Source of the DNA: Brooklawnia propionicigenes
GTDB lineage: Bacteria; Actinomycetota; Actinomycetes; Propionibacteriales; Propionibacteriaceae
Assembly (NCBI RefSeq): GCF_030297015.1
Contig: NZ_AP028056.1
Span: 2,614,939 to 2,678,938, forward strand
DNA length: 64,000 nucleotides
Reading direction: 5' to 3'
Part shown: positions 43,230-55,401 of the stretch, one piece after another
How positions within the stretch are numbered: the first letter of the stretch is position 1
Layout: the number at the start of each line of letters is the position of its first letter
Translations under genes and position numbers: made by a program
Notes under the pieces: model-generated
What the model was told of the DNA's origin: nothing
The model's input: the letters and a program-made list of their open reading frames with translations, nothing else
Database searches by the model: none

Positions 43230-45602
43230 TCAGTCGGTGAAGCCCATTTGCCGGTACGCCGACCGGCGCCTTGAGTACTGCGCATTGAGGACGGGGACGC
43301 TTGCATCGAGGTAGTCGTGTACGGCGACTTCGGTCTTGCCTTCGTGCCGGCGCAGCGCGCGGCCGACGGCTTGGATGAGCAGTCCGGGGTAGGAGATGGG
43401 CCCGGCGAGGAAGACGGTGTCGATGGCGGGTGCATCGAATCCTTCACCGCCGTAGGGGACGGTGGTCATGACAAGAAGCGGGTCGCCCGGGTAAGCGTCG
43501 GCGATCTTGGCTCGGATGGCGGCCAGTGCTTTGGCGCCGGTGCCGCCGCGCATGATCAGCGCTTCCGTGTCGGGCAGCAGGCCGGCGAGCGCGGTGAGGT
43601 TGTCGCGGCGGCGGGACAGGACGAGGCACTTGCGGCCTTGGGCGAGTGCCGCAGCTATGTCGGCTGCGATCTGGCGGTTGCGTTCCGGGTCTTTGGCGAG
43701 CAGGCCGCCCAGTTGGGTGATCGCTCCAGGTGTGCTCAGGTCGAAGTCGTGCGGGCTGCGATAGGCGGTGGAGTGGATGTGCAGCACGCGACGCGGTCCG
43801 TCGTACGGGGTGACGAGGTTGGCTTCGTGGGGGAGCGTGTCGCGGATGGTGTGCCGGATGGGGCCGAGCTGCCAGTTGGTGACCTGCTCCAGTCCGTCCT
43901 TGCGTTCGGGTGTCGCCGTGAGGCCCAGCCACCAGGTGGCGCCGATCTGGGCTACGACGTTCTCGTAGGATCCGGCGGCGAGGTGGTGGCATTCGTCGAC
44001 GATCACCTGGCCGTAGCCCTGGGTGAGCTCCCGGATGTCCTGGGGGCTGTGTCGGGCCAGGGATTGCAGGAGCATGATGTCGACCTGTCCGCGGGTCTTG
44101 GCTCGTCCGCCGCCCAGCTGGCCGGTCTTGATGCCGAGGAGGTTGCGGACCTGTTCGCGCCACTGTGAGGCAAGTGCTGTCTTGTTGATGAGCACGAGCG
44201 TGGTGACTGAGCGTTCGGCGATGATGGCGCAGGCCATCACCGTCTTGCCCGAGCCGGTCGGCGCATAAAGGACGCCGTCCTCGTGAGCCAGCAACCTGTC
44301 GACGGCTGCTGCCTGCCGCTCGTCGAGTTCGCCGAGGAAGGACACGTCGAGTTCGTTGCCTTCGTTGCGGTTGTCCTCGCTGACCAGGTCACTTCCTGCT
44401 TGGGTGATCAGGTCGGCTGCTTGGTAGCGTAGCCCGCGCGGGAGGAGCAGGTCCCCGTTGACGGCGATGTCGAAGCCCTGGATGAAGCGGGGGATGTTCC
44501 AGGTCGACCGGCGGGCGCGTTGGGCCTCGTAGAACGCCGGGTTGTGGATGGTGGCCGCATGTCGTAGGGCTGCCGACAACTCGGGCGTCAGGTCCTCGTC
44601 CCGGATCGTCAACTGCGCCGCCAGCGTCGCCCGGACGCGAGTCGGGGGGCTGGGGTGGATGGCGGTCGCGGGCGAGGTTTCCAGTCTGGTGACCTCGAGC
44701 CCGACGACGAGCCGTTCCATTCGGCCGGCTGCTGCTACTTGGCGGGGAGTCATCCGGTCCAGGCGTGACAGGTACTCCCACTGGTCGGGCCACGGCTCCC
44801 AGGTGGCCAGGTCCACGAACAGGGTTGTGCCGCGTTTGGTGCGGCGGTTGCCGTTCAGGGGTGCGGCGATCAGGTTCCCGACCCCGGACGAGCCTGTCGG
44901 GACTGTGTCCTGGTTCGGGAACAACCGGTCGTAGCTGGCCAGCGGCATCGATCCGCGCAACGCCATCGCCCGGTGGATGCAGGCGGTCCCCATCGCCCGG
45001 GCGTCCGCCGCGGGAACTGGGGAGGTGAAGAACGTCCACACGTGTGCGCCTCTGCCGGACTGGGAGATCTCAAGCCCGCAGGGGACACCGAGGGACGCGG
45101 CGGCCTTCACGTACGCGTGCGCGTCCAGCATGGCCTGGGGACCGTCGAAGTCGGCGGCCAGCCACCAGCAGTTTCCGTCCGGCAGCAGCGGATACAGACC
45201 GATGAACAACTCATTGCCAGACCGCAGGTGCGCCTCGAGGACCTCGTTCGTCAACGGAAGCGGTCGACGATCCCACAACGAGCCCTTGCCGAACGAGTCC
45301 CGCACCGCCGGCGACCAGCCCTTCGTGCCTTTCCGCGGGTTCTCCCAGTATCGTGCGTACACGTCCCGGCGCGCCGCGAAGAGCTGCGCGTACAACGCCA
45401 GCTTCACTTCCGTCGGTGACGCGTTCGTCACCAAGCCTGGATCGGATGGGGCCAATGTCGGCTGGGACGGGGGTGGTTCCACCCCGTCGGTCACCTTGAG
45501 CAGGTTCCTCAACCGCAGGTTCTCCACCCGAAGCGCCGTCAACTGGCGCTCCAGATCAGCCCGGCGCGCCTGCGCGTCACCAAACCGGGAGACCGACATC
45601 AC
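43230..45602 (-). CDS. TOTE-type archaeo-eukaryotic primase fused to SF2 helicase
   Basis: This 790-residue protein has a short coiled coil (about 10-40; ERQLTALRVENLRLRNLL), an archaeo-eukaryotic-primase domain (about 65-290) with WWLAADFDG (metal aspartates) and SQSGRGAHVWTFF (catalytic histidine), then a DEAD-like SF2 helicase: Walker A YAPTGSGKT, VIVDECHHLA, GLTATPERKDG and QAVGRALRRHEG. This is the domain order of TOTE conflict systems, presumed antiviral. The restriction-endonuclease component usual in TOTE systems is not visible next to it. It follows the HEPN gene by 2 bp, so they may be co-transcribed. GTG 45602 or ATG 45599. Confidence 0.85.
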   Translation of the reverse strand: MMSVSRFGDAQARRADLERQLTALRVENLRLRNLLKVTDGVEPPPSQPTLAPSDPGLVTNASPTEVKLALYAQLFAARRDVYARYWENPRKGTKGWSPAVRDSFGKGSLWDRRPLPLTNEVLEAHLRSGNELFIGLYPLLPDGNCWWLAADFDGPQAMLDAHAYVKAAASLGVPCGLEISQSGRGAHVWTFFTSPVPAADARAMGTACIHRAMALRGSMPLASYDRLFPNQDTVPTGSSGVGNLIAAPLNGNRRTKRGTTLFVDLATWEPWPDQWEYLSRLDRMTPRQVAAAGRMERLVVGLEVTRLETSPATAIHPSPPTRVRATLAAQLTIRDEDLTPELSAALRHAATIHNPAFYEAQRARRSTWNIPRFIQGFDIAVNGDLLLPRGLRYQAADLITQAGSDLVSEDNRNEGNELDVSFLGELDERQAAAVDRLLAHEDGVLYAPTGSGKTVMACAIIAERSVTTLVLINKTALASQWREQVRNLLGIKTGQLGGGRAKTRGQVDIMLLQSLARHSPQDIRELTQGYGQVIVDECHHLAAGSYENVVAQIGATWWLGLTATPERKDGLEQVTNWQLGPIRHTIRDTLPHEANLVTPYDGPRRVLHIHSTAYRSPHDFDLSTPGAITQLGGLLAKDPERNRQIAADIAAALAQGRKCLVLSRRRDNLTALAGLLPDTEALIMRGGTGAKALAAIRAKIADAYPGDPLLVMTTVPYGGEGFDAPAIDTVFLAGPISYPGLLIQAVGRALRRHEGKTEVAVHDYLDASVPVLNAQYSRRRSAYRQMGFTD

Positions 45603-45604
45603 AG

Positions 45605-46057
45605 TCAGTCCCGGTCGCTCTCACTGGCGCCTGCGCTCCCAACAGAGCGTGTGTCCTTGAGTTGCCTGTCGACATGCGTGGGCTCGCCGAGCGCGGCGTC
45701 ACCCACGGCCCGCTCGTCGCCGATTGCGGCTGATTGATGAAGGAGGACGCGCTGCCTGATGCGGCTCATGATGGAGGGAACGTCGTGGATCATGGTCTCG
45801 CGGATGATGGTGGTGTCGACCAGCAGGTAGCCGTGCGCAATGCGGTTCCGCATGCCCCACATGAGCGGCCAGACCTCGCCGAAGATGTCCTCCCGCTCGT
45901 CGGAGTCGATCGCGGCGAGCGCCTCGATCCCAGCGGACAAGCGCATGCACACCGCGTCGATGACCAGACGCTCTTCAAGGCCCTGCTCGGCGTGGGTCTG
46001 CATGATCTCGAAGTGCGCCAACGCGTCTTGAAGGATCTCGATCGTGGTCCGGCTCAC
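45605..46057 (-). CDS. HEPN domain toxin (HepT-like)
   Basis: This 150-residue HEPN RNase-like protein is paired with the MNT gene upstream. The helical domain ends in the catalytic RX4-6H motif, here RNRIAHGYLLVD, seen in HepT toxins and DUF86 proteins. Preceding helices IEILQDALAHFEIMQTHA and RLVIDAVCMRLSAGIEAL match the family. The C-terminal 35 residues are polar and probably disordered. The GTG start overlaps the MNT stop (GTGA). In characterised HEPN/MNT modules the HEPN toxin cleaves RNA until it is modified by the nucleotidyltransferase. Confidence 0.88.
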   Translation of the reverse strand: MSRTTIEILQDALAHFEIMQTHAEQGLEERLVIDAVCMRLSAGIEALAAIDSDEREDIFGEVWPLMWGMRNRIAHGYLLVDTTIIRETMIHDVPSIMSRIRQRVLLHQSAAIGDERAVGDAALGEPTHVDRQLKDTRSVGSAGASESDRD

Positions 46058-46524
46058 AGTGCCACGGCCTCGGCCAGGATCCGGTCGCGTAGCTCGGGCC
46101 GCAGCACCGAGTCGGGCACGACATCCACCGGGCAACCCACCACTCGGCTTACGGCGCGCTCCAGGACGCCGAGTTGTATCAAGCTGAGGGGTCGTTCCAT
46201 GGTGAACAGCAAGTCGATGTCGGAATCCTCCCGATCCTCCCCAGTGGCGACCGACCCGAACACTCGGACGTTGCTGCCACCAGCCTCAGCCACCAGACGC
46301 TTCACCTCGGCGGCGTGCTTACGCAGCCGACGCCCCAGCGAGGATGTCCCATGGAAGCGAAGCAGACGGGACACCTCGGGCTGGCTGCGGCCGATCTCGG
46401 CGGCGATCTGCGTCTGGGTCATTCCCGCTGCGGCCGCCTGCCGCACAGCCCGGACCAGTTCGGCGCGCGCACGCGAGATTCGGTAGTCGGCGTCGCGGGC
46501 TACCTCTGCCAGACTGCTCGTCAT
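46054..46524 (-). CDS. MNT nucleotidyltransferase antitoxin with N-terminal HTH
   Basis: This 156-residue protein has an Xre-like helix-turn-helix (AGMTQTQIAAEIGRSQPEVS, about 34-53) and a minimal nucleotidyltransferase domain with VFGSVATGEDREDSDIDLLF (GSx10DxD). In MntA/HepT systems this enzyme AMPylates the HEPN toxin. The fused HTH suggests autorepression at the palindrome just upstream. The ATG is 6 nt after a TATAAT box, so the mRNA is leaderless. Confidence 0.88.
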   Translation of the reverse strand: MTSSLAEVARDADYRISRARAELVRAVRQAAAAGMTQTQIAAEIGRSQPEVSRLLRFHGTSSLGRRLRKHAAEVKRLVAEAGGSNVRVFGSVATGEDREDSDIDLLFTMERPLSLIQLGVLERAVSRVVGCPVDVVPDSVLRPELRDRILAEAVAL

Positions 46525-46530
46525 GGCCTC

Positions 46531-46548
46531 ATTATAGCAACGGCTATA
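46531..46548 (-). promoter_or_regulatory. Leaderless promoter and operator palindrome of the MNT/HEPN operon
   Basis: On the minus strand TGCTATAAT is an extended, perfect -10 (hexamer at 46536-46531), followed by 6 nt and ATG. It overlaps TATAGC-AACG-GCTATA (46533-46548), a perfect 6-bp inverted repeat suited to binding by the MNT helix-turn-helix. Repressor binding would cover the -10. Confidence 0.65.
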
Positions 46549-46700
46549 CGTACTGAGTGTCCGCGGTCCGTGCCCAGGCGGCTCACGCAACCCCCCGGCG
46601 GACTGTTGAGTTCAGGGATGGAGTAGCGCCCGATTGAGATGGGCGCACGCGAAAGGCCTTGTCAGGGCCAGGGTGGGGCGACAGGTCGGCGAGCAATCTC

Positions 46701-47439: not shown

Positions 47440-48462
47440 CTACTCGGCTGGGGTGGTCCGCCGTAAGGGGCATCCGCACGACTCGCGCAATTCGAGCGTG
47501 AACGGTACCCGGACGAACTTGGGTACCGACTCGGGCGGACTGTCAACGATGTCTAGTGCGGCTTCGGCGATCAGGTCGGTGGGCTGGCGCACCGAGGTGA
47601 GCGGGGGAATCAGGAACGGGCTCAACTCCGTGGCGTCGATGGAGACCACGGCGACGTCGCCCGGAACCGACAATCCGACGCGATGAAGCGCACTCAGCGC
47701 TCCGATCGCCTGGGTGTCGTTGGACACGAAGAGCCCGTCCGGCAGCTCTGGCTGGCTGAAGAGCTCCATGGTGGCATCGAAGCCACCCTGGAATGAGTAT
47801 TCGGCCCGACGCACGAGGTGCTGGGTCTGTTGCGGCGGATAAGCCGTCTCGTCCCGCCAGCCCCGGTACCGGACGCTGAAGACCCCATGCTCGACAGGAC
47901 CCAGCACTGCGGCGATGCGCTGGCGTCCATGCTCCAGCAGGTGCCGTACCGCCGCGCGGGCCGCTGCGCGCTGCGCGATGCCCACGGGCACGACCTGATC
48001 GGACCCGAAGCGCAACACATTGACGGCTCCGTGCGCAACCGATGAGGTGCCTACCTGCAGCGTCGGTCCGATGACTAGCACTGCGTCCACCCGCCGGTGC
48101 CAGAAGGTCTGCAGCATCTGCTGCTCAGCGGATGGATGATAGGCCGTCGATCCGACGAGCACGGCCTTGCCCCGCTTGGAGGCTTGGCGTTCGACCTCGG
48201 CGACGAGGTCGGAGAAGAACGGGCCGTTGAAGTTGGGCACCAGCATCCCGATGGCGTTCGAGTCGGACCCCCGGAAGGACAGCGCCACCGGATCGGGGCG
48301 ATAGCCGAGCTCCTCGATCGCGCGCAGTACTCGTTGTCGAGTCTCCTCGGACACGAACTTCGGTCCGTTGTTGACGACGTAGCTGACAGTGGCCGGCGAC
48401 GTCCCGGCACGCCTCGCGACGTCGGCTCTGGTGGGGTTCCTGCGGGGGATTGTGGACGACAA
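47440..48462 (-). CDS. LacI family transcriptional regulator of the transketolase sugar operon
   Basis: This 340-residue regulator begins NPTRADVARRAGTSPATVSYV (LacI headpiece near residue 8) and has the sensor domain (AIGMLVPNFNGPFFSDLV, GLFVSNDTQAIGALSAL, VAVVSIDATELSPFLIPPLTSV). I chose TTG 48462 since GAGGAG lies 7 nt upstream and homology starts there; the long upstream extension is not LacI-like. It is divergent from the symporter/transketolase operon, and near-palindromic sites overlap that promoter. Confidence 0.87.
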   Translation of the reverse strand: MSSTIPRRNPTRADVARRAGTSPATVSYVVNNGPKFVSEETRQRVLRAIEELGYRPDPVALSFRGSDSNAIGMLVPNFNGPFFSDLVAEVERQASKRGKAVLVGSTAYHPSAEQQMLQTFWHRRVDAVLVIGPTLQVGTSSVAHGAVNVLRFGSDQVVPVGIAQRAAARAAVRHLLEHGRQRIAAVLGPVEHGVFSVRYRGWRDETAYPPQQTQHLVRRAEYSFQGGFDATMELFSQPELPDGLFVSNDTQAIGALSALHRVGLSVPGDVAVVSIDATELSPFLIPPLTSVRQPTDLIAEAALDIVDSPPESVPKFVRVPFTLELRESCGCPLRRTTPAE

Positions 48463-48815
48463 ACGAAGTACTCCTCTGGCTACCAGGCGATCGGACGTCC
48501 GGAGTCCGGCTACAAGCGCCCGGCCCGCCAGGCGTTGACCGCACTGAGAAGCAATGTTAAGGCATCCTGCGCCGCACATCCGGCTCATCTTGCGGGCGCG
48601 GTGCTTGATGTGTGCGGCCGCAGTCGCCTCTTTGTAACGCTGACACGACCAATCCGGAGGGCGTTCAGAAACTCATAGGTGACACGTAGCGTCTAGATTT
48701 CGAGTTGGCTCTTCCAATCCAGGTGATACGTGTCATATAGTGACTACCGCCAGCTGGTCGTTGCGGGCGATGACGCCCGAGCCAGCACCAGGATTCAGTC
48801 TAGGAAGGATGGCTC
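48463..48815. other. 353-bp divergent regulatory region of the transketolase operon
   Basis: No gene is seen. It contains the LacI-gene ribosome-binding site at one end, repeated TGAYACGTA elements near 48680-48691 and 48724-48735, and a TATAGT -10 at 48736-48741. Confidence 0.55.
48680..48741 (+). promoter_or_regulatory. Putative LacI operators and -10 box
   Basis: TGATACGTGTCA at 48724-48735 is near-palindromic with a central CG; TGACACGTA at 48680-48688 is a related half. TATAGT follows immediately at 48736-48741, so a bound repressor would block RNA polymerase. No convincing -35 at 17 bp. Confidence 0.5.
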
Positions 48816-50408
48816 GTGAGCTATCAGAGCGCGCTTTCGGCTGCCACTTCAGACAAACCCAAATGGGAGATGTCGGGCGCCGCGCCGGGATACTATCTGC
48901 TCAAGACCAGAGAAATACTCGGTTATTCATCCGTTGACTTCGCCATGAACCTCGTATTCCAGGCGATCATGATGTACATCACCTTCTTCTACACCGATAT
49001 CTTCGGATTGCGGGTAGCTGACGTGACGTTGATGTTCCTGCTGTCGAGATTCGTGGACGCCTTCGCCGACCCGATCATGGGCACGATCGCGGAGCGATCG
49101 AATCCATCCAGAGGCAAGTACAAGTCGTGGCTGATCTACGGGGCGGTGCCCTTCGGTGTGATGGCAGTCCTCACCTACACCACGCCCAACTTCAGCTACG
49201 GATGGAAGCTGCTGTGGGCATATGTGACGTACAACCTGCTGAACATCCTCTACTCGGTGATCATCAACCCGTATATCTCGCTGGCGAGCGTGATGACGGC
49301 AGATCCGGCGCAGCGCACCAAGCTACAGAGCGTTCGCATGATGTGCGCGCAGAGCGGCGGCGTCATCGTCGCCCTGGCACTGCCGCTGGTCAGCGGCTGG
49401 CTCTCGCAATTCCTGTCGCTGCAGAGCAGCTACATGGTCACCACCGGCGTGCTCGCCATTGTCATGGTTGCGACCTTGTTCTGGGCCTCAACTCAGGTGG
49501 TGGAGCGAATCAAGGTCACCTCCCACGAGGACCCGCCCGGATTCAAGGACGTGATCTACCAGTTGACCCACAACAAGTACGTGGTGTTGATGTTCCTGCT
49601 GTTCTTCGGCGTCTACGGTTTCAACACGGTTCAGTCGTCCTCGGGCGTGTACTACATGACCTATTTCGCCATGCGGCCCGATATGGTCGCCTGGTTCTCG
49701 ATGATGAACGTGCTGCCGTCGGTTGTTGGCGTCGCCGTCGTGCCGTGGCTGATCAGGAACTTCCGCAAGCGCGGCACTGTGATGCTCGGGCTGACGGTCG
49801 GCGCAGCCGGGGCCTTGCTGCTCGGCCTGCTGCCGGCGACCAGCGTCGCCTTGATGCTGGCTTTCCGCGGTCTGAGCTCGTTCGGCTACGGCATCTTGAT
49901 GGGCAGCCTGTGGGCGATCATCACCGACCCGGTCGAGTACGGCGATCTGCACACCGGCCGTCGGCTGACCGCGATCGTGATGACGCTCATCGGACTCGGC
50001 CTCAAGTTCTCCATGCTGCTCGGCGGCGTCTTGCCGACCCTGATCCTGAGTGCCGTGCACTACGAGCCGGGAGTTGCGCAGCAGACCCAGCAGTCGCTCA
50101 ACGGCATCCATCTGATGTCCTCGTGGCTGCCGGCCGGCATCCTCATCGTCACCTTGATCATCTTCGGGCTGTCCTATGACCTCACTGAGGAGAAGGTCGC
50201 CCAGATCCAGCACAAGATCGCCGTCCGAGACGGGTTGCTCGCTCCCGTGAACGACGAGGAACGAGCTCTGGTCGCCGAGGGCGAGGCGCTGCGCGCTGCC
50301 GCGGCCCGCAAGCACGACGCCGACACCCTGCTCGGGGGCGCGCAGGGATCCCTTTCCACGATCGATTCCCATGACGAACGCGAAACAACGGAAGGCTTCG
50401 AGAAATGA
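48816..50408 (+). CDS. GPH-family sugar:cation symporter (MFS)
   Basis: This 530-residue protein of about 12 membrane segments belongs to the glycoside-pentoside-hexuronide:cation family (MelB, UidB, YihO). Diagnostic regions: FADPIMGTIAERSNPSRGKYKSWLIYG (split) between segments 2 and 3, with the cation-site acidic residues, and SLWAIITDPVEYGDLHTGRR in the C-half. The N-terminus carries an extra 40 residues and the C-terminus a long hydrophilic tail. It would import a sugar or sugar acid for the enzymes encoded downstream. GTG start after AGGAAGG. Confidence 0.88.
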   Translation: MSYQSALSAATSDKPKWEMSGAAPGYYLLKTREILGYSSVDFAMNLVFQAIMMYITFFYTDIFGLRVADVTLMFLLSRFVDAFADPIMGTIAERSNPSRGKYKSWLIYGAVPFGVMAVLTYTTPNFSYGWKLLWAYVTYNLLNILYSVIINPYISLASVMTADPAQRTKLQSVRMMCAQSGGVIVALALPLVSGWLSQFLSLQSSYMVTTGVLAIVMVATLFWASTQVVERIKVTSHEDPPGFKDVIYQLTHNKYVVLMFLLFFGVYGFNTVQSSSGVYYMTYFAMRPDMVAWFSMMNVLPSVVGVAVVPWLIRNFRKRGTVMLGLTVGAAGALLLGLLPATSVALMLAFRGLSSFGYGILMGSLWAIITDPVEYGDLHTGRRLTAIVMTLIGLGLKFSMLLGGVLPTLILSAVHYEPGVAQQTQQSLNGIHLMSSWLPAGILIVTLIIFGLSYDLTEEKVAQIQHKIAVRDGLLAPVNDEERALVAEGEALRAAAARKHDADTLLGGAQGSLSTIDSHDERETTEGFEK

Positions 50409-51463
50409 AGTGTGTGCATGTAGTGAAGATCGGCAGTCTGAGGGATCCCGATCCCCAGACCCGGGGCGCCGTCGGAGTCCTCGATATACCCCAGCAGCCG
50501 CTCGGGGACGAGGACGTCCGCATCAAGGTGGCCTACTGCTCGATCTGCGGTTCGGATCCCCACCTGGTCGAGGGAATCTTCGGAACCGACGTCCCCATCG
50601 GTATCGGCCACGAGCTGTCCGGTGTTGTCGTGGAGCTGGGCCCGAAAGCGACCAAGAAGGGACTGAAGGTCGGCGACCGGGTCGCGGGGAACTTCGTCCG
50701 TTTCTGCGGGACCTGTTATTACTGCCAGAACGGGCAGCAGCAGTTCTGCGAGTCGCTACAGGAGTACAACCGTCCCGGCATGGCCGAGACGATCGTGTGG
50801 CACGAGTCGCAGGTGTACAAGCTGCCCGACGACGTGCCGCTGCGGGTCGGCTGCTTGCTCGAGCCCACGTCGGTGGCCGTGCGGGTGATGGACAAGGTGC
50901 GCCCGAAGGTGGGCGAGCGGGTCGCCATCTGCGGCGCCGGTCCCATCGGCTTGTTGACCCTTCAGTTGATCAAGATCATGGGCGCCACGAGCTTGACGCT
51001 GATCGAGCCGATCGCCGAACGCCGGGAGCTTGCGATTGCCTACGGGGCCGATCACACCATCGATCCCATCAGCCAAGACGTCGTTGCCACCGCTCGGGAA
51101 CTGACCGGTGGCTTGGGCTACGACGTGGTCATCGACTGCTCGGGTTCGGTTCGCGGGATCGAGCCTCTTCCCCGGATCGCGGCCAGAGGGGGACGACTTG
51201 TCTTCGCCGCCATGTATCCCGGCAGCTACGAGTTCCCGCTGAACATTCACCAGTACTGCTACCTCAATGAGCTGACCATCACCGGGCTGTACATCTCGCC
51301 GTACACCTATCCGCGGGCTGCCCAGGTGATGTCGCGGCTCGATCTCGAGGCACTCACCCAGGCGGTCTTTGAGCTCGATGACGCGGTCGCGGCCTTCGAG
51401 GCCCAGGTGTCCGGCAAGTACCCGAAGGTCCTTATTCGTTGCAATCAGATCGAGGGGGAGTGA
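50405..51463 (+). CDS. Zinc-dependent alcohol dehydrogenase
   Basis: This 352-residue medium-chain dehydrogenase has a catalytic zinc site in YCSICGSDPH and IGHELSG, structural zinc cysteines CGTCYYCQNGQQQFC, and NAD fold ICGAGPIGLLTLQLIKIMG with an acidic LIEP. The start is coupled to the symporter gene (ATGA). It probably oxidises a hydroxyl of the imported compound. Similar to sorbitol and L-threonine/idonate dehydrogenases; the real substrate is not evident. Confidence 0.87.
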   Translation: MKCVHVVKIGSLRDPDPQTRGAVGVLDIPQQPLGDEDVRIKVAYCSICGSDPHLVEGIFGTDVPIGIGHELSGVVVELGPKATKKGLKVGDRVAGNFVRFCGTCYYCQNGQQQFCESLQEYNRPGMAETIVWHESQVYKLPDDVPLRVGCLLEPTSVAVRVMDKVRPKVGERVAICGAGPIGLLTLQLIKIMGATSLTLIEPIAERRELAIAYGADHTIDPISQDVVATARELTGGLGYDVVIDCSGSVRGIEPLPRIAARGGRLVFAAMYPGSYEFPLNIHQYCYLNELTITGLYISPYTYPRAAQVMSRLDLEALTQAVFELDDAVAAFEAQVSGKYPKVLIRCNQIEGE

Positions 51464-51479
51464 CCGGTTCACCGGTCAC
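51460..51479 (+). promoter_or_regulatory. Intercistronic hairpin (dehydrogenase/transketolase)
   Basis: GTGACCGGT (51460-51468) and ACCGGTCAC (51471-51479) form a compact stem overlapping the dehydrogenase stop codon, just before the AGGAGGG of the next gene. Confidence 0.5.
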
Positions 51480-51501
51480 GCTCCACACCACAGGAGGGCA
51501 G

Positions 51502-52383
51502 ATGACTAACACGATCGAGCGGCCGCTGGGCATTGAGCGCCAGCAGATCACCATTGGAGAACTAGAGGATCGCGCCTATGAGCTGAAAGAGAAGCTGCTG
51601 CGGCTGTGCGGTTCATATGAGGGCGCCGTGCATATCGGTGGCGACCTGTCGGTGGCCGACATCTTGACGGCACTGTTCCAGTACGGGATGCGGGTGGACC
51701 CGTCCGATATCGCCAACCCAGGACGTGATCGGTTCATCCTGAGCAAGGGCCATGCGGCCGTGTGCATGTACATCGCCATGGCTATCCGTGGGTTCTTCGA
51801 CTACGACGACATCGTCCGCACATATGGAAAGCTCGGCAGTGCCTTCGGCATGCACCCGTGCAAGGTGCAGTTGCCCGGCGTCGAGGCATCCACCGGGTCT
51901 TTGGGCCATGGCCTGCCCATCGCGGTCGGAATGGCACTGCACGCTCGCCAGGCCGGCCTGGACCATCGAGTCTTCGTCCTCATGGGCGACGGCGAGACCG
52001 GCGAGGGCAGCGTGTGGGAGGGGGCGATCGCCGGACGCAGTCGCGAGCTGGGCAATCTGGTGGCCTTCATCGACCGCAACTGCCAGCTGATGACCAGCTT
52101 CTCGGAAGACCGCATCGTCCTGGAACCCTACGCCGACAAGTGGCGGGCATTCGGCTGGAACGTGCTGGAGGTCGACGGCCACGACATGGCGGCGCTGGTG
52201 CAGGCCATCGATTCCCTGCCGGGCGCCGACTCCGATCGTCCGACCGCGGTGATCTGCCGGACAGTCAAGGGTCATGGAGTCGACTTCATGGAACGCAATC
52301 TGGGCTGGCACGCCGGCTCGCTGGGCGCGGCAGATCTCCAGCGGGCACTGGATTCGTTGAACAAGAGCCGGAAGGAGAAGTGA
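51502..52383 (+). CDS. Transketolase, N-terminal (diphosphate-binding) subunit
   Basis: This 293-residue half-transketolase carries the thiamine diphosphate/Mg fold: GGDLSVADILTALF, SKGHAAVCMY, GSLGHGLPIAVGMAL and the GDG motif VLMGDGETGEGSVWEGAI with FIDRN. The partner pyrimidine domain is the next gene, 3 bp away. Split transketolases usually act on special ketoses (apulose, sulfofructose and similar) and not in the pentose phosphate pathway. The ATG at 51502 follows AGGAGGG. Confidence 0.9.
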   Translation: MTNTIERPLGIERQQITIGELEDRAYELKEKLLRLCGSYEGAVHIGGDLSVADILTALFQYGMRVDPSDIANPGRDRFILSKGHAAVCMYIAMAIRGFFDYDDIVRTYGKLGSAFGMHPCKVQLPGVEASTGSLGHGLPIAVGMALHARQAGLDHRVFVLMGDGETGEGSVWEGAIAGRSRELGNLVAFIDRNCQLMTSFSEDRIVLEPYADKWRAFGWNVLEVDGHDMAALVQAIDSLPGADSDRPTAVICRTVKGHGVDFMERNLGWHAGSLGAADLQRALDSLNKSRKEK

Positions 52384-52386
52384 ACT

Positions 52387-53343
52387 ATGCCTGTGACCTC
52401 GAACTTCGATGTGGTCATCTCGTCACGCTCGGTGACGGGTCAAACCCTTGCTGAGTTGGGTGAGGAGCATCCGAATCTGTGGGCAATCACCCCGGATATC
52501 AGCGCGACGCTGGTGGAGTTCCGGGAACGATTCCCGGAACGGTTCGTCGACGTGGGTCTGTCCGAGCAGGCAGCTGTCGGCGTGGCCTCCGGACTGGCTT
52601 ACGAGGGCAATATCTGCGTCGTGTCGGGCATGCTGCCCTTCTTGAGCATGCGGGCACTCGAGCAGGTGCGCACCGATGTGTGTTATCCGAACCTTCCGGT
52701 GCGCATCATCGGGACGCACGGTGGCCTGCAGGGCAACGGCGGCTCCACGCACTACGCCGTCGAGGACTTGGGGCTGATGTGCTCGCTGGTGAACATGACG
52801 GTCGTGTCGATCAGTGATCCCATGATGGTCAGAGAGGTGCTGCAGCAGTCCATGTCGCTGCCCGGGCCCTTGTACATCCGCACCGGTGTCGGCAAGAAGG
52901 ACACTGTCATCTACGACTTTGACGAGCTCGATATCAGCATCGGCAGAGGCATCGTCGCCCGCGAGGGCACCGACATCACGCTGTTCTGTCATGGGGAGAT
53001 GGTCGCCCAGGCTATGCAGGCGGCAGCCGCGATGGCCGATGAGGGCGTCTCGGTGCGCGTGGTCGACATCTTCACTCTCAAGCCGATCGATGTGGACCTC
53101 ATCAAGCAGTGCGCCGACGACACGCACCGCTTCGTCGTCCTGGAAGACCATCTGATGGCCAGTGGTCTTGCGCAGTGCATCGCGAATGTGCTCGCCGACC
53201 AGATGATTCACCTCGACTGGTTCCGGCGGCTGGGCATTCCTCAGGTCTTCGCGGGATTCGGTGAGGACAAGGAACTGCGCGACAAGTACGGCTACGGCCT
53301 GCAGGACACGATCGCGGCGCTGCGCGAAGCCGCCGTCCACTGA
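52387..53343 (+). CDS. Transketolase, C-terminal (pyrimidine-binding) subunit
   Basis: This 318-residue subunit has the pyrimidine domain (LWAITPDISATLVEFRERFPERFVDVGLSEQAAVGVASGLAYEG read with family spacing; the glutamate in GLSEQ activates the cofactor) and the C-terminal domain (YIRTGVGKKD, DITLFCHGEMVAQAM, RVVDIFTLKPID). With the previous protein it forms a heterotetrameric enzyme moving two-carbon ketol units. Stop is followed by a strong hairpin. Confidence 0.9.
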   Translation: MPVTSNFDVVISSRSVTGQTLAELGEEHPNLWAITPDISATLVEFRERFPERFVDVGLSEQAAVGVASGLAYEGNICVVSGMLPFLSMRALEQVRTDVCYPNLPVRIIGTHGGLQGNGGSTHYAVEDLGLMCSLVNMTVVSISDPMMVREVLQQSMSLPGPLYIRTGVGKKDTVIYDFDELDISIGRGIVAREGTDITLFCHGEMVAQAMQAAAAMADEGVSVRVVDIFTLKPIDVDLIKQCADDTHRFVVLEDHLMASGLAQCIANVLADQMIHLDWFRRLGIPQVFAGFGEDKELRDKYGYGLQDTIAALREAAVH

Positions 53344-53351
53344 CAACAACT

Positions 53352-53392
53352 GTCAGCCGGTGGATGTGGCATCGCTTCATCCACCGGCTGAC
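53352..53392 (+). promoter_or_regulatory. 15-bp perfect stem hairpin inside the sugar operon
   Basis: GTCAGCCGGTGGATG (53352-53366) pairs exactly with CATCCACCGGCTGAC (53378-53392), immediately before the AAAGG ribosome-binding site of the isomerase gene. No T-run, so attenuation or mRNA processing is more likely than complete termination. Confidence 0.65.
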
Positions 53393-53407
53393 GAAAGGAA
53401 CGTGACA

Positions 53408-54268
53408 ATGAACAGTCCCGAAATCGCCTGCGGCATCAACGTGTACTGCACCGGTCCGGATGCAGCCGACCTGCCCAGCGCCCTGGACGACATGGCCGAG
53501 CTGGGGTACTCGCACATCGCGTTGTCCCCGATCTCCGAGGACGCCACCGATGTGGCCGCACTCAAGAAGGCGCTCAACGACTCCGGAATACGTCCGATCC
53601 CCATGGCCGGTCAGGCGCCGCAGGCCAATGTCGCCTCCGCGGACGAGGCAGTCCGGGCGAGAGGCCTCGATCTGCTGAAGTCGTCCATCGACCTCGCTCA
53701 CGAGCTGGAGGCGGACCAGCTCAACGGCGTCGTGTACGCGCTGTTCGGTGATCACCAGGAGCCCTTCTCGGGCGAGCGCATCGCGGAGTCGGCACGGCTG
53801 GTGGGCCAGGCTGCCGACTACGCCGCGCAGGCCGGCATCCGGATGACCTTCGAGGTCGTCAACCGCTACGAGACATCGATGCTGAACACCGCCGCGCAGG
53901 CGATCGACTATGTTCGGCAGTCCGGCTCGGACAACCTGTTCGTCCACCTCGACAGCTACCACATGGGCATTGAGGAGGCTGACATCCCCGGCGCGATCCG
54001 CAGCGCGCTGCCGGTGCTGGGCTACCTGGAACTCGGTCAATCGGGACGAGGCTCGCTGCTCACCGGATCGGTCGACATCCGGGCGGCGGTGCAGGCGGCG
54101 AAGGAAGCCGGATACACCGGCCGGTTCGGCCTGGAGGCTTTCACCCGTCAGCTACTGGTTACCGGTGGTGCGAATGCCCTGGCTATTTGGCGCCGGACCT
54201 ACTCCGATCCGCACGCGGTGGCCGCCGAAGCTGTCGACATCATCCGCTCGGTCTACGCCGAGCAGTGA
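53408..54268 (+). CDS. Sugar phosphate isomerase/epimerase family protein (TIM barrel)
   Basis: This 286-residue AP-endonuclease-2-like barrel has a metal-site pattern as in D-tagatose 3-epimerase and related isomerases: FEVVNRYETSML (Glu), FVHLDSYHMGIEE (Asp and His) and GRFGLEAF (Glu). Typical length. It likely interconverts ketoses or aldoses upstream of the transketolase. ATG 53408 has AAAGGAACG upstream. Confidence 0.86.
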   Translation: MNSPEIACGINVYCTGPDAADLPSALDDMAELGYSHIALSPISEDATDVAALKKALNDSGIRPIPMAGQAPQANVASADEAVRARGLDLLKSSIDLAHELEADQLNGVVYALFGDHQEPFSGERIAESARLVGQAADYAAQAGIRMTFEVVNRYETSMLNTAAQAIDYVRQSGSDNLFVHLDSYHMGIEEADIPGAIRSALPVLGYLELGQSGRGSLLTGSVDIRAAVQAAKEAGYTGRFGLEAFTRQLLVTGGANALAIWRRTYSDPHAVAAEAVDIIRSVYAEQ

Positions 54269-54313
54269 CCATCTCGCGCATAGTGCATTCCGCTTGTTAG
54301 GAGCTCAAGAATA

Positions 54314-55099
54314 ATGAACGACGAAATTGATCGCTTTTCCATGGACTATTTCCGGCTGGACGGCAAGGTTGCCATCGTTACCGGCGCGAATATGGGCCTG
54401 GGGATGGCATATGCTGCGGCCTTCGCCAAAGCAGGTGCCGATCTCTACATTCCCCATTTTACCGGCGATGTTGCCGAGATAACGGAGATCGTCGAGACCG
54501 AAGGACGCAAGGTCGCATTTCTGCAGGGGGATCTCACCGATTCGGAGTATATGGACCGCATCGTCGCCGACTGCTTGTCGACATACGGCGGGATCGACAT
54601 TCTCGTGAACAATGCCGGAATGAGCAAGTTCGGTGACTTCGAGACTTACGCGGACGAAGACTATCGGCGCTGCATCGAACTCGACCTGAACGCCTCCTAC
54701 TTCCTCGGCCGGCGCGTTGCGCTGGTGATGATGAAGCAGGGCAACGGCAAGATCATCAACATCGGCTCGGCGCTGTCGTTCACGGCCGACAAGCGTTGTC
54801 CTCCGTACTCGACGGCCAAGCACGGCATCATCGGTCTGACCCGGGTCTTCGCAAACGAACTCGGGCAGCACAACATCCAATCCAATGCGATCTGCCCGGG
54901 ATTCCTGGCCACCGAGGTGAACCGCGAACTCCGCGAGGATCCGGGGTTCTACAACAAGATCACCGATCGGATCCCGGCCGGACGCTGGGGGCGGCTCGAT
55001 GACCTGATGGGCGCCGCGGTCTTCCTGGCCAGCCAGGCCTCGGACTATGTGAATGGCTGGACCATCAGCCTTGACGGCGGGTTCACCACCACGGTCTGA
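54314..55099 (+). CDS. Short-chain dehydrogenase/reductase (KduD/gluconate dehydrogenase-like)
   Basis: This 261-residue classical SDR has cofactor motif VTGANMGLGMAYA, NNAG, catalytic Ser near INIGSAL, YSTAKHG and PG motif AICPGFLATE. An extra N-terminal dozen residues (MNDEIDRFSMDYFRLDGK) and the GLGMAYA glycine motif are shared with KduD-type 2-dehydro-3-deoxygluconate/gluconate 5-dehydrogenases. Last gene of the operon; probably reduces or oxidises a keto-sugar intermediate. TTAGGAG lies about 13 nt upstream of the start. Confidence 0.88.
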   Translation: MNDEIDRFSMDYFRLDGKVAIVTGANMGLGMAYAAAFAKAGADLYIPHFTGDVAEITEIVETEGRKVAFLQGDLTDSEYMDRIVADCLSTYGGIDILVNNAGMSKFGDFETYADEDYRRCIELDLNASYFLGRRVALVMMKQGNGKIINIGSALSFTADKRCPPYSTAKHGIIGLTRVFANELGQHNIQSNAICPGFLATEVNRELREDPGFYNKITDRIPAGRWGRLDDLMGAAVFLASQASDYVNGWTISLDGGFTTTV

Positions 55100-55327: not shown

Positions 55328-55401
55328 GCGGACGTAGCTCAATGGTAGAGCCCCAGTCTTCCAAACTGGCTACGCGGGTTCGATTCCCGTCGTCCGCTCC
55401 A
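55328..55401 (+). tRNA. tRNA-Gly (anticodon UCC), CCA encoded
   Basis: Acceptor GCGGACG/CGTCCGC, D arm GCTC-AATGGTA-GAGC, anticodon arm CCAGT-CTTCCAA-ACTGG with TCC, T arm CGGGT-TCGATTC-CCG-type loop, discriminator T and encoded CCA at 55399-55401. TACAGT at about 55303 is a likely -10. Confidence 0.95.

Follow-up and report, generated by a model that had tools for sequence, protein, structure and literature searches.

A kinase-free split-transketolase operon in Brooklawnia propionicigenes and its possible role in the cleavage of arylglycerol side chains

Among the described systems that use a two-chain (split) transketolase, the apulose 4-phosphate system relies on a kinase which makes the donor. 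In the sulfo-transketolase (sulfo-TK) pathway, the split transketolase SqwGH cleaves unphosphorylated sulfofructose with glyceraldehyde 3-phosphate as acceptor, and what remains is an aldehyde that clostridia reduce and other organisms oxidize, according to the sections of PMC9594981 dealing with this pathway. We analyzed a stretch of 64,000 nucleotides from Brooklawnia propionicigenes (contig NZ_AP028056.1, referred to as the window), which contains an operon with a split transketolase (TktN and TktC, together TktNC). A preliminary description of this operon stated that the sulfofructose route needs a kinase or accompanying signature genes, although SqwGH requires no kinase, and saw in the operon one LacI-controlled unit without a kinase, possibly for an already charged sugar or for a ketose used unphosphorylated. 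The LacI-controlled unit, the lack of a kinase and, probably, the use of an unphosphorylated ketose-like compound are supported by the analysis, and the charged sugar is not. The six-gene kinase-free operon with its divergent LacI gene is real, and we give an even chance to the reading that it provides, in this host, a route for a compound of the type R-CHOH-CHOH-CH2OH, most likely an arylglycerol.

A check of open reading frames (ORFs) and coordinates placed six genes on the same strand, overlapping or separated by short gaps, at the positions expected from the preliminary description (Table 1). In domain scans PF00456, PF02779, PF02780, PF01261, adh_short, ADH_zinc_N and LacI all exceeded the Pfam cut-offs. 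The thiamine-binding, pyrimidine-binding and C-terminal domains of a transketolase (PF00456, PF02779, and PF02780) are divided over two adjacent chains, and family and domain scans of the operon proteins detected no kinase domain. The starts of TktN and the TIM-barrel protein were placed by a purine-rich, ribosome-binding-like sequence upstream, and LacI may in fact start further downstream than annotated (its listed ORF in the second species of the genus has 351 amino acids). The whole block is 82-94% identical in that second species (G401, L056), including a LacI of 82% identity, and 99-100% identical in a metagenome-assembled genome titled Propionibacterium sp. (L039; TktC 100%). With the block conserved in both, the operon is far beyond chance.

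Table 1. Features of the split-transketolase operon and its surroundings in the window.
Feature	Position	Strand	Remarks
GPH-family cation symporter	48816..50408	+	TIGR00792 (gph) 324.9 bits, cut-off 231
Zinc-dependent polyol-type dehydrogenase (ZnDH)	50405..51463	+	ADH_N; ADH_zinc_N over cut-off; proposed C2 oxidation
TktN, N-terminal transketolase chain	51502..52383 (listed ORF from 51439)	+	PF00456; R91 to G
TktC, C-terminal transketolase chain	52387..53343	+	PF02779, PF02780; D469 to G, R520 to V
TIM-barrel protein related to ketose 3-epimerases	53408..54268	+	PF01261; metal-site His to Glu
Short-chain dehydrogenase/reductase (SDR), KduD / gluconate 5-dehydrogenase type	54314..55099	+	adh_short; proposed aldehyde reductase or second C2 dehydrogenase
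LacI-family regulator	47440..48588	-	divergent to operon; PF00356 and Peripla_BP_3 both exceed their cut-offs
Palindrome GTGATACGTGTCAT, probable LacI operator (predicted)	48723..48736	.	precedes GPH gene; same sequence and place in G401
Half-site GGTGACACGT, related to the palindrome	48678..48687		
tRNA-Gly gene	55328..55401		3' of operon
790-amino-acid protein	43230..45602	-	primase domain of a TOTE conflict system (PF22548) plus a helicase domain; also matched by PADLOC PrimPol models
HepT-like and nucleotidyltransferase ORFs	45605..46590	-	overlapping; probably an MNT-HEPN toxin-antitoxin pair

The proposed reactions are deduced from the protein sequences. Cleavage of HOCH2-CHOH-CHOH-R into a C2 unit and R-CHO is suggested because a zinc dehydrogenase, an epimerase-like barrel and a transketolase are what such a cleavage needs. 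The substrate would be a lignin-derived or plant phenylpropane triol, for example guaiacylglycerol (a C6-C3 triol), imported by the GPH symporter. ZnDH would oxidize C2 to give the aryl ketose HOCH2-CO-CHOH-R, and the TIM-barrel protein would set the configuration at C3 required by the transketolase. TktNC would then cut between C2 and C3, transferring the glycolaldehyde unit to a sugar phosphate (the acceptor is probably glyceraldehyde 3-phosphate, giving xylulose 5-phosphate) and freeing the aldehyde R-CHO. In relatives with aromatic pathways the aryl aldehyde would be oxidized and then demethylated; in this host the aldehyde may be reduced by the SDR and then excreted, unless the SDR serves the second C2 stereoisomer. 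A set of two dehydrogenases and a C3 epimerase would, in addition, be suited to racemic material from lignin. Lignin peroxidase is reported to yield arylglycerol from synthetic lignin, in the part of PMC8157907 that covers this reaction. Somewhat short of an even chance is what we give to the more specific proposal that this is a previously undescribed route, with a natural transketolase cutting the side chain of arylglycerols from lignin once C2 has been oxidized and C3 epimerized, and without use of ATP.

Homologs of TktC were searched for in 396 genomes of the phylum, 57 close relatives, 299 genomes of the family of G316 and 394 genomes of the class. At an E-value of 1e-70, matches were present in two of the 57 close relatives (B. 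propionicigenes, G000, and G401) and in 13 of the 299 genomes of the G316 family, which we take to be Microbacteriaceae from the position of Microbacterium sp. cf046 (L040) within it in the tree. At 1e-75, five of the 394 class genomes matched, G000 and G316 among them. The other matches in the phylum sample were mostly generic split transketolases of 32-39% identity. A single-protein query of the genome contigs found only two loci, and no plasmid-borne relative was found at 1e-50. In a tree of 49 TktC sequences, a long-stemmed branch with support 100/100 separates the 20 close sequences from the others. The genome of B. propionicigenes, a single contig of 3.21 Mb, also encodes a second split transketolase (L003) and one of full length (L007).

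For the comparison of active sites, the E. coli numbering was transferred by motif to the full-length transketolase of the host's own genome. The residue table omits L039, which is the same species as the window, and its TktN part also omits L065 (cut by a contig end) and L075 (broken frames). Residues R358, E411, H461, and H473 are kept in all 20 TktC sequences of the clade and H26, H66, H100, and H261 in all 18 TktN sequences; of these, H26, H66, H100, H261, E411, and H473 are catalytic residues. By contrast with transketolases of the phosphosugar (pentose phosphate) type, which have D469 and R520 with R91, the clade has G at 469 (20/20), V (18/20), Q (1/20, the paralog in G401) or A (1/20) at 520, and G at 91 (18/18). 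In the comparison set of 29 split transketolases (the 28 best loci of the phylum sample and L003), D469 is kept in 23, R520 in 25 and R91 in 23. As R520 lies next to the distal anion in transketolases, these replacements speak against the suggestion of an already charged sugar.

The three losses fit a donor that carries neither a hydroxyl on the carbon adjacent to C3 nor a distal anion; a donor with an aryl group would answer to this, but others would as well. The retained R358 and H461 could hold a phosphorylated acceptor. In E. coli transketolase, D469 contacts H26 and R91 and interacts with R520, and the R520V variant gains activity on propionaldehyde (PMC3657141, in the sections on these residues). 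The S385Y/D469T/R520Q variant is active on three benzaldehyde derivatives on which the wild type is not, and the hydroxyl of S385 interacts with the substrate phosphate (PMC5073344, sections on this variant); the benzaldehyde activity is stated again, with rates, in the corresponding part of PMC10787763. Position 385 is T in 19 of the 20 clade sequences, but it was set aside as evidence, as the alignment is gapped there.

Two further groups of split-transketolase genes were observed. The genome of G401 contains a second, adjacent operon (L056:15795-19900 and L057:1-2682) with its own LacI, TktN, and TktC, a different GPH symporter and two zinc dehydrogenases. Its TktC is 57% identical to that of the window, with G at position 469 and, at position 520, the same Q as in the engineered enzyme. 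The next relatives of the clade, L011 and L012 (L077, L078), with TktC of 36-38% and TktN of 48-49% identity, have G at 469 and adjoin a zinc dehydrogenase which is 35-44% identical.

The nearest solved relatives of ZnDH (4oh1, named L-iditol 2-dehydrogenase) and of the TIM-barrel protein (ketose 3-epimerases acting on psicose and ribulose) fit C2 oxidation and C3 epimerization, respectively. The metal site of a ketose 3-epimerase is presumably formed by Glu, Asp, His, and Glu. In all 18 distinct TIM-barrel sequences the His is replaced by Glu, with the other metal-site acids kept in the sequences aligned, so the D-tagatose/D-psicose 3-epimerase site is not intact. Epimerase activity is thus likely but cannot be taken for granted. 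The nearest solved chain to the SDR is 4z9y, and the SDR scores 318 bits with the family model PRK06935, under the cut-off of 369.

The genes surrounding TktNC in the relatives were located by tblastn with reference proteins at 17 loci outside Propionibacteriaceae, including L040; two of these (L074, L075) come from another family than the Microbacteriaceae. A block of TktN, TktC, ZnDH, an ABC importer, an SDR and the TIM-barrel protein is present at 10 loci (L040, L055, L059, L062, L067, L068, L069, L073, L074, and L075). At nine of them, all but L075, it is flanked by one of two aldehyde dehydrogenases (ALDHs); ALDH2 has its nearest matches among the dehydrogenases of 4-hydroxybenzaldehyde, benzaldehyde and vanillin. 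The vanillate O-demethylase LigM stands with PurU and MetF beside the block at L040, L067, and L069 (continued in L081), and scores 867 bits against a curated cut-off of 580. VanA, of the vanillate O-demethylase VanAB, was identified by its VanA_C domain and has this place at L062, L063, and L068. Genes of the hydroxyquinol-dioxygenase or phenol-hydroxylase type adjoin TktNC at six loci (L058, L061, L063 in its upstream stretch L080, L064, L065, and L066), and relatives of hydroxyquinol dioxygenase and maleylacetate reductase were identified among the marker genes. A MarR-type gene lies nearby at 14 of the 17 loci; its place is taken by an IclR-type gene at L061 and L064, and at L065 the contig ends. 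In the relatives, aromatic catabolic genes stand beside TktNC. At L075:2695-10940 (G905) the genes for TktN, the TIM-barrel protein and the binding protein are split across frames, either by sequencing errors or as pseudogenes. In relatives with small genomes (1.3-1.8 Mb; L058, L060, L061, L063-L066, and L080) only TktN, TktC and usually the TIM-barrel protein remain, and TktNC stands beside an amidohydrolase (PF07969) and hydroxyquinol-type genes; the 7.2 kb of L060 contain, besides MarR and the TIM-barrel protein, only an amidohydrolase.

The association extends to whole genomes. LigM (over its cut-off) or VanA was found in 10 of the 16 TktC-bearing genomes outside Propionibacteriaceae, compared to three of 14 genomes of the G316 family which lack TktC, and intradiol dioxygenases occur in 14 of the 16 (the exceptions are G618 and G627). 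In seven of the 10 genomes that carry LigM or VanA, the nearest copy lies less than 25 kb from TktC on the same contig; G593 and G905 have copies on other contigs, and in G824 the distance is 846 kb. The chance of at least seven of 10 within 25 kb under uniform placement is about 5e-10, a value which is only indicative, as the limit was chosen after the distances had been seen and genome sizes were rounded. Because the relatives adjoin aromatic-aldehyde dehydrogenases and vanillate demethylases, R is read as an aryl group and the substrate as an arylglycerol. For the Microbacteriaceae operon, we regard the aryl reading as more probable than for that of the window.

Several observations weigh against an arylglycerol as the substrate in this host. 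LigM, VanA and intradiol dioxygenases were found in neither of the two Propionibacteriaceae genomes (G000, G401), whose best match to the aromatic aldehyde dehydrogenase is 36-37% identical (36% in the host of the window). The operon of the Microbacteriaceae, moreover, has another importer in place of GPH and another SDR. Among the relatives themselves, six loci of small genomes have no ZnDH or ALDH near TktNC (L058, L060, and L063 reach contig ends soon). D469 and R520 are also absent from six and four, respectively, of the 29 transketolases outside the clade, so that these losses are not unique to it, and the TIM-barrel protein has lost a metal ligand. With these aromatic genes missing from its genome, the host may either harvest only the side chain and excrete the aryl product, in which case the KduD-like SDR would act as the reductase, or use another R.

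The latter would mean that the same chemistry, transketolase cleavage of an unphosphorylated compound, serves an aryl substrate in Microbacteriaceae but in Propionibacteriaceae a deoxy-ketose (or the corresponding polyol) that lacks a hydroxyl beside C3. The missing aromatic genes, the differing importer and SDR, and the combination of LacI with a GPH symporter, which is usual for sugars, speak for this division. However, TktC of the window is 67-71% identical to the aromatic-linked homologs and has the same substrate-site residues, and the relatives also share ZnDH (58-65% identical in the 10 loci outside Propionibacteriaceae) and a TIM barrel that has the unusual Glu. We consider a deoxy-ketose unlikely, though a serious contender.

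A sugar-acid or sulfosugar route, in which TktNC would cleave a charged ketose such as 5-ketogluconate or sulfofructose, has a precedent in sulfo-TK, where a charged ketose is used unphosphorylated without a kinase, and would suit an SDR of the KduD / gluconate 5-dehydrogenase type. The loss of R520, D469, and R91 argues against it, as do the aromatic neighborhoods of the relatives and the lack of sulfonate or uronate genes among the operon proteins. The sulfosugar form was rejected on the isomerase: the SqvD family (PF02952) was found in neither G000 nor G401, with matches in three of 14 control genomes. No SqwI domain (PF02502) was found among the operon proteins; at a distance of 30 kb, in L086, there is an ORF identified by eye as RpiB-like. 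A charged ketose is therefore quite improbable, and the neighborhoods of the homologs point to aromatic compounds rather than to sulfosugars, uronates or apiose. Even more doubtful is a rare unphosphorylated sugar (apulose, psicose or a pentulose) handled by an ordinary ketose 3-epimerase and an ordinary split transketolase, to which the psicose and ribulose 3-epimerases as nearest solved relatives of the TIM barrel would point; the hydroxyl- and phosphate-site residues are lost in all sequences of the clade, the metal site differs in each distinct TIM-barrel sequence, and the relatives sit with aromatic genes. Engineered transketolases do join a C2 unit to benzaldehydes, but the adjoining importers, aldehyde dehydrogenases and O-demethylases indicate catabolism and make such a reverse reaction, for detoxification or synthesis, highly improbable here.

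A predicted operator is in keeping with control by LacI. The pattern RTGAYACGTRTCAY was searched in G000 and G401 with at most one mismatch and the backwards pattern as control. Each genome contains one perfect match, located at the operon promoter. Imperfect sites elsewhere number one in G000 and two in G401, and the control gave none. The one-mismatch site in G000 falls within the ORF of an ABC permease, close to the ORF identified by eye as RpiB-like, and no kinase ORF was present in the 3 kb read around it. The operator search gave no sign of a distant co-regulated kinase, which would have spoken against the preliminary description; a looser regulon could still exist. Promoter and terminator scans performed no better than shuffles.

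If the proposed arylglycerol route is correct, it would explain a class of kinase-free split-transketolase operons, add a side-chain pathway for lignin use and offer natural transketolases for aromatic ketol chemistry. The C2 unit would go straight into the pentose phosphate pathway, with release of the aromatic aldehyde, without ATP. We found no bacterial arylglycerol side-chain route joined to a transketolase in the open-licence literature, so that novelty is not proven, and the relevant sections of PMC12997858, PMC11837543, PMC3777014, and PMC10662689 describe none. In a proteomics study of Enterobacter lignolyticus, the transketolase-related proteins Entcl_1430 and Entcl_1431 were up in lignin-amended cells, significantly only for Entcl_1430 (PMC3777014, section on these proteins); their consecutive numbers hint at a split transketolase.

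Compared to known systems, the operon shares fold and catalytic residues with the generic split transketolases of Actinomycetota, but its TktC is only 32-39% identical to theirs, and they mostly keep D469, R520, and R91. The apulose 4-phosphate system likewise places a two-chain transketolase beside sugar dehydrogenases or isomerases, but its definition includes a kinase in the cluster, which this operon does not have. Two of the three positions engineered in E. coli S385Y/D469T/R520Q, D469 and R520, are also changed in the natural clade; the engineered enzyme is, however, a single chain, the replacements here are G and V, and position 385 falls in the alignment gap. The beta-aryl ether (GGE) pathway of sphingomonads feeds a lignin C6-C3 unit to vanillate, but it proceeds via beta-hydroxypropiovanillone, and transketolase is nowhere mentioned in PMC11837543, which describes this pathway. 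Sulfo-TK is the closest functional precedent. It needs SqvD and SqwI, neither of which was found in the operon, and its substrate is a sulfonate, but both systems combine a two-chain transketolase with an unphosphorylated ketose donor, the lack of a kinase and glyceraldehyde 3-phosphate as acceptor, the donor and acceptor being proposed for the present operon.

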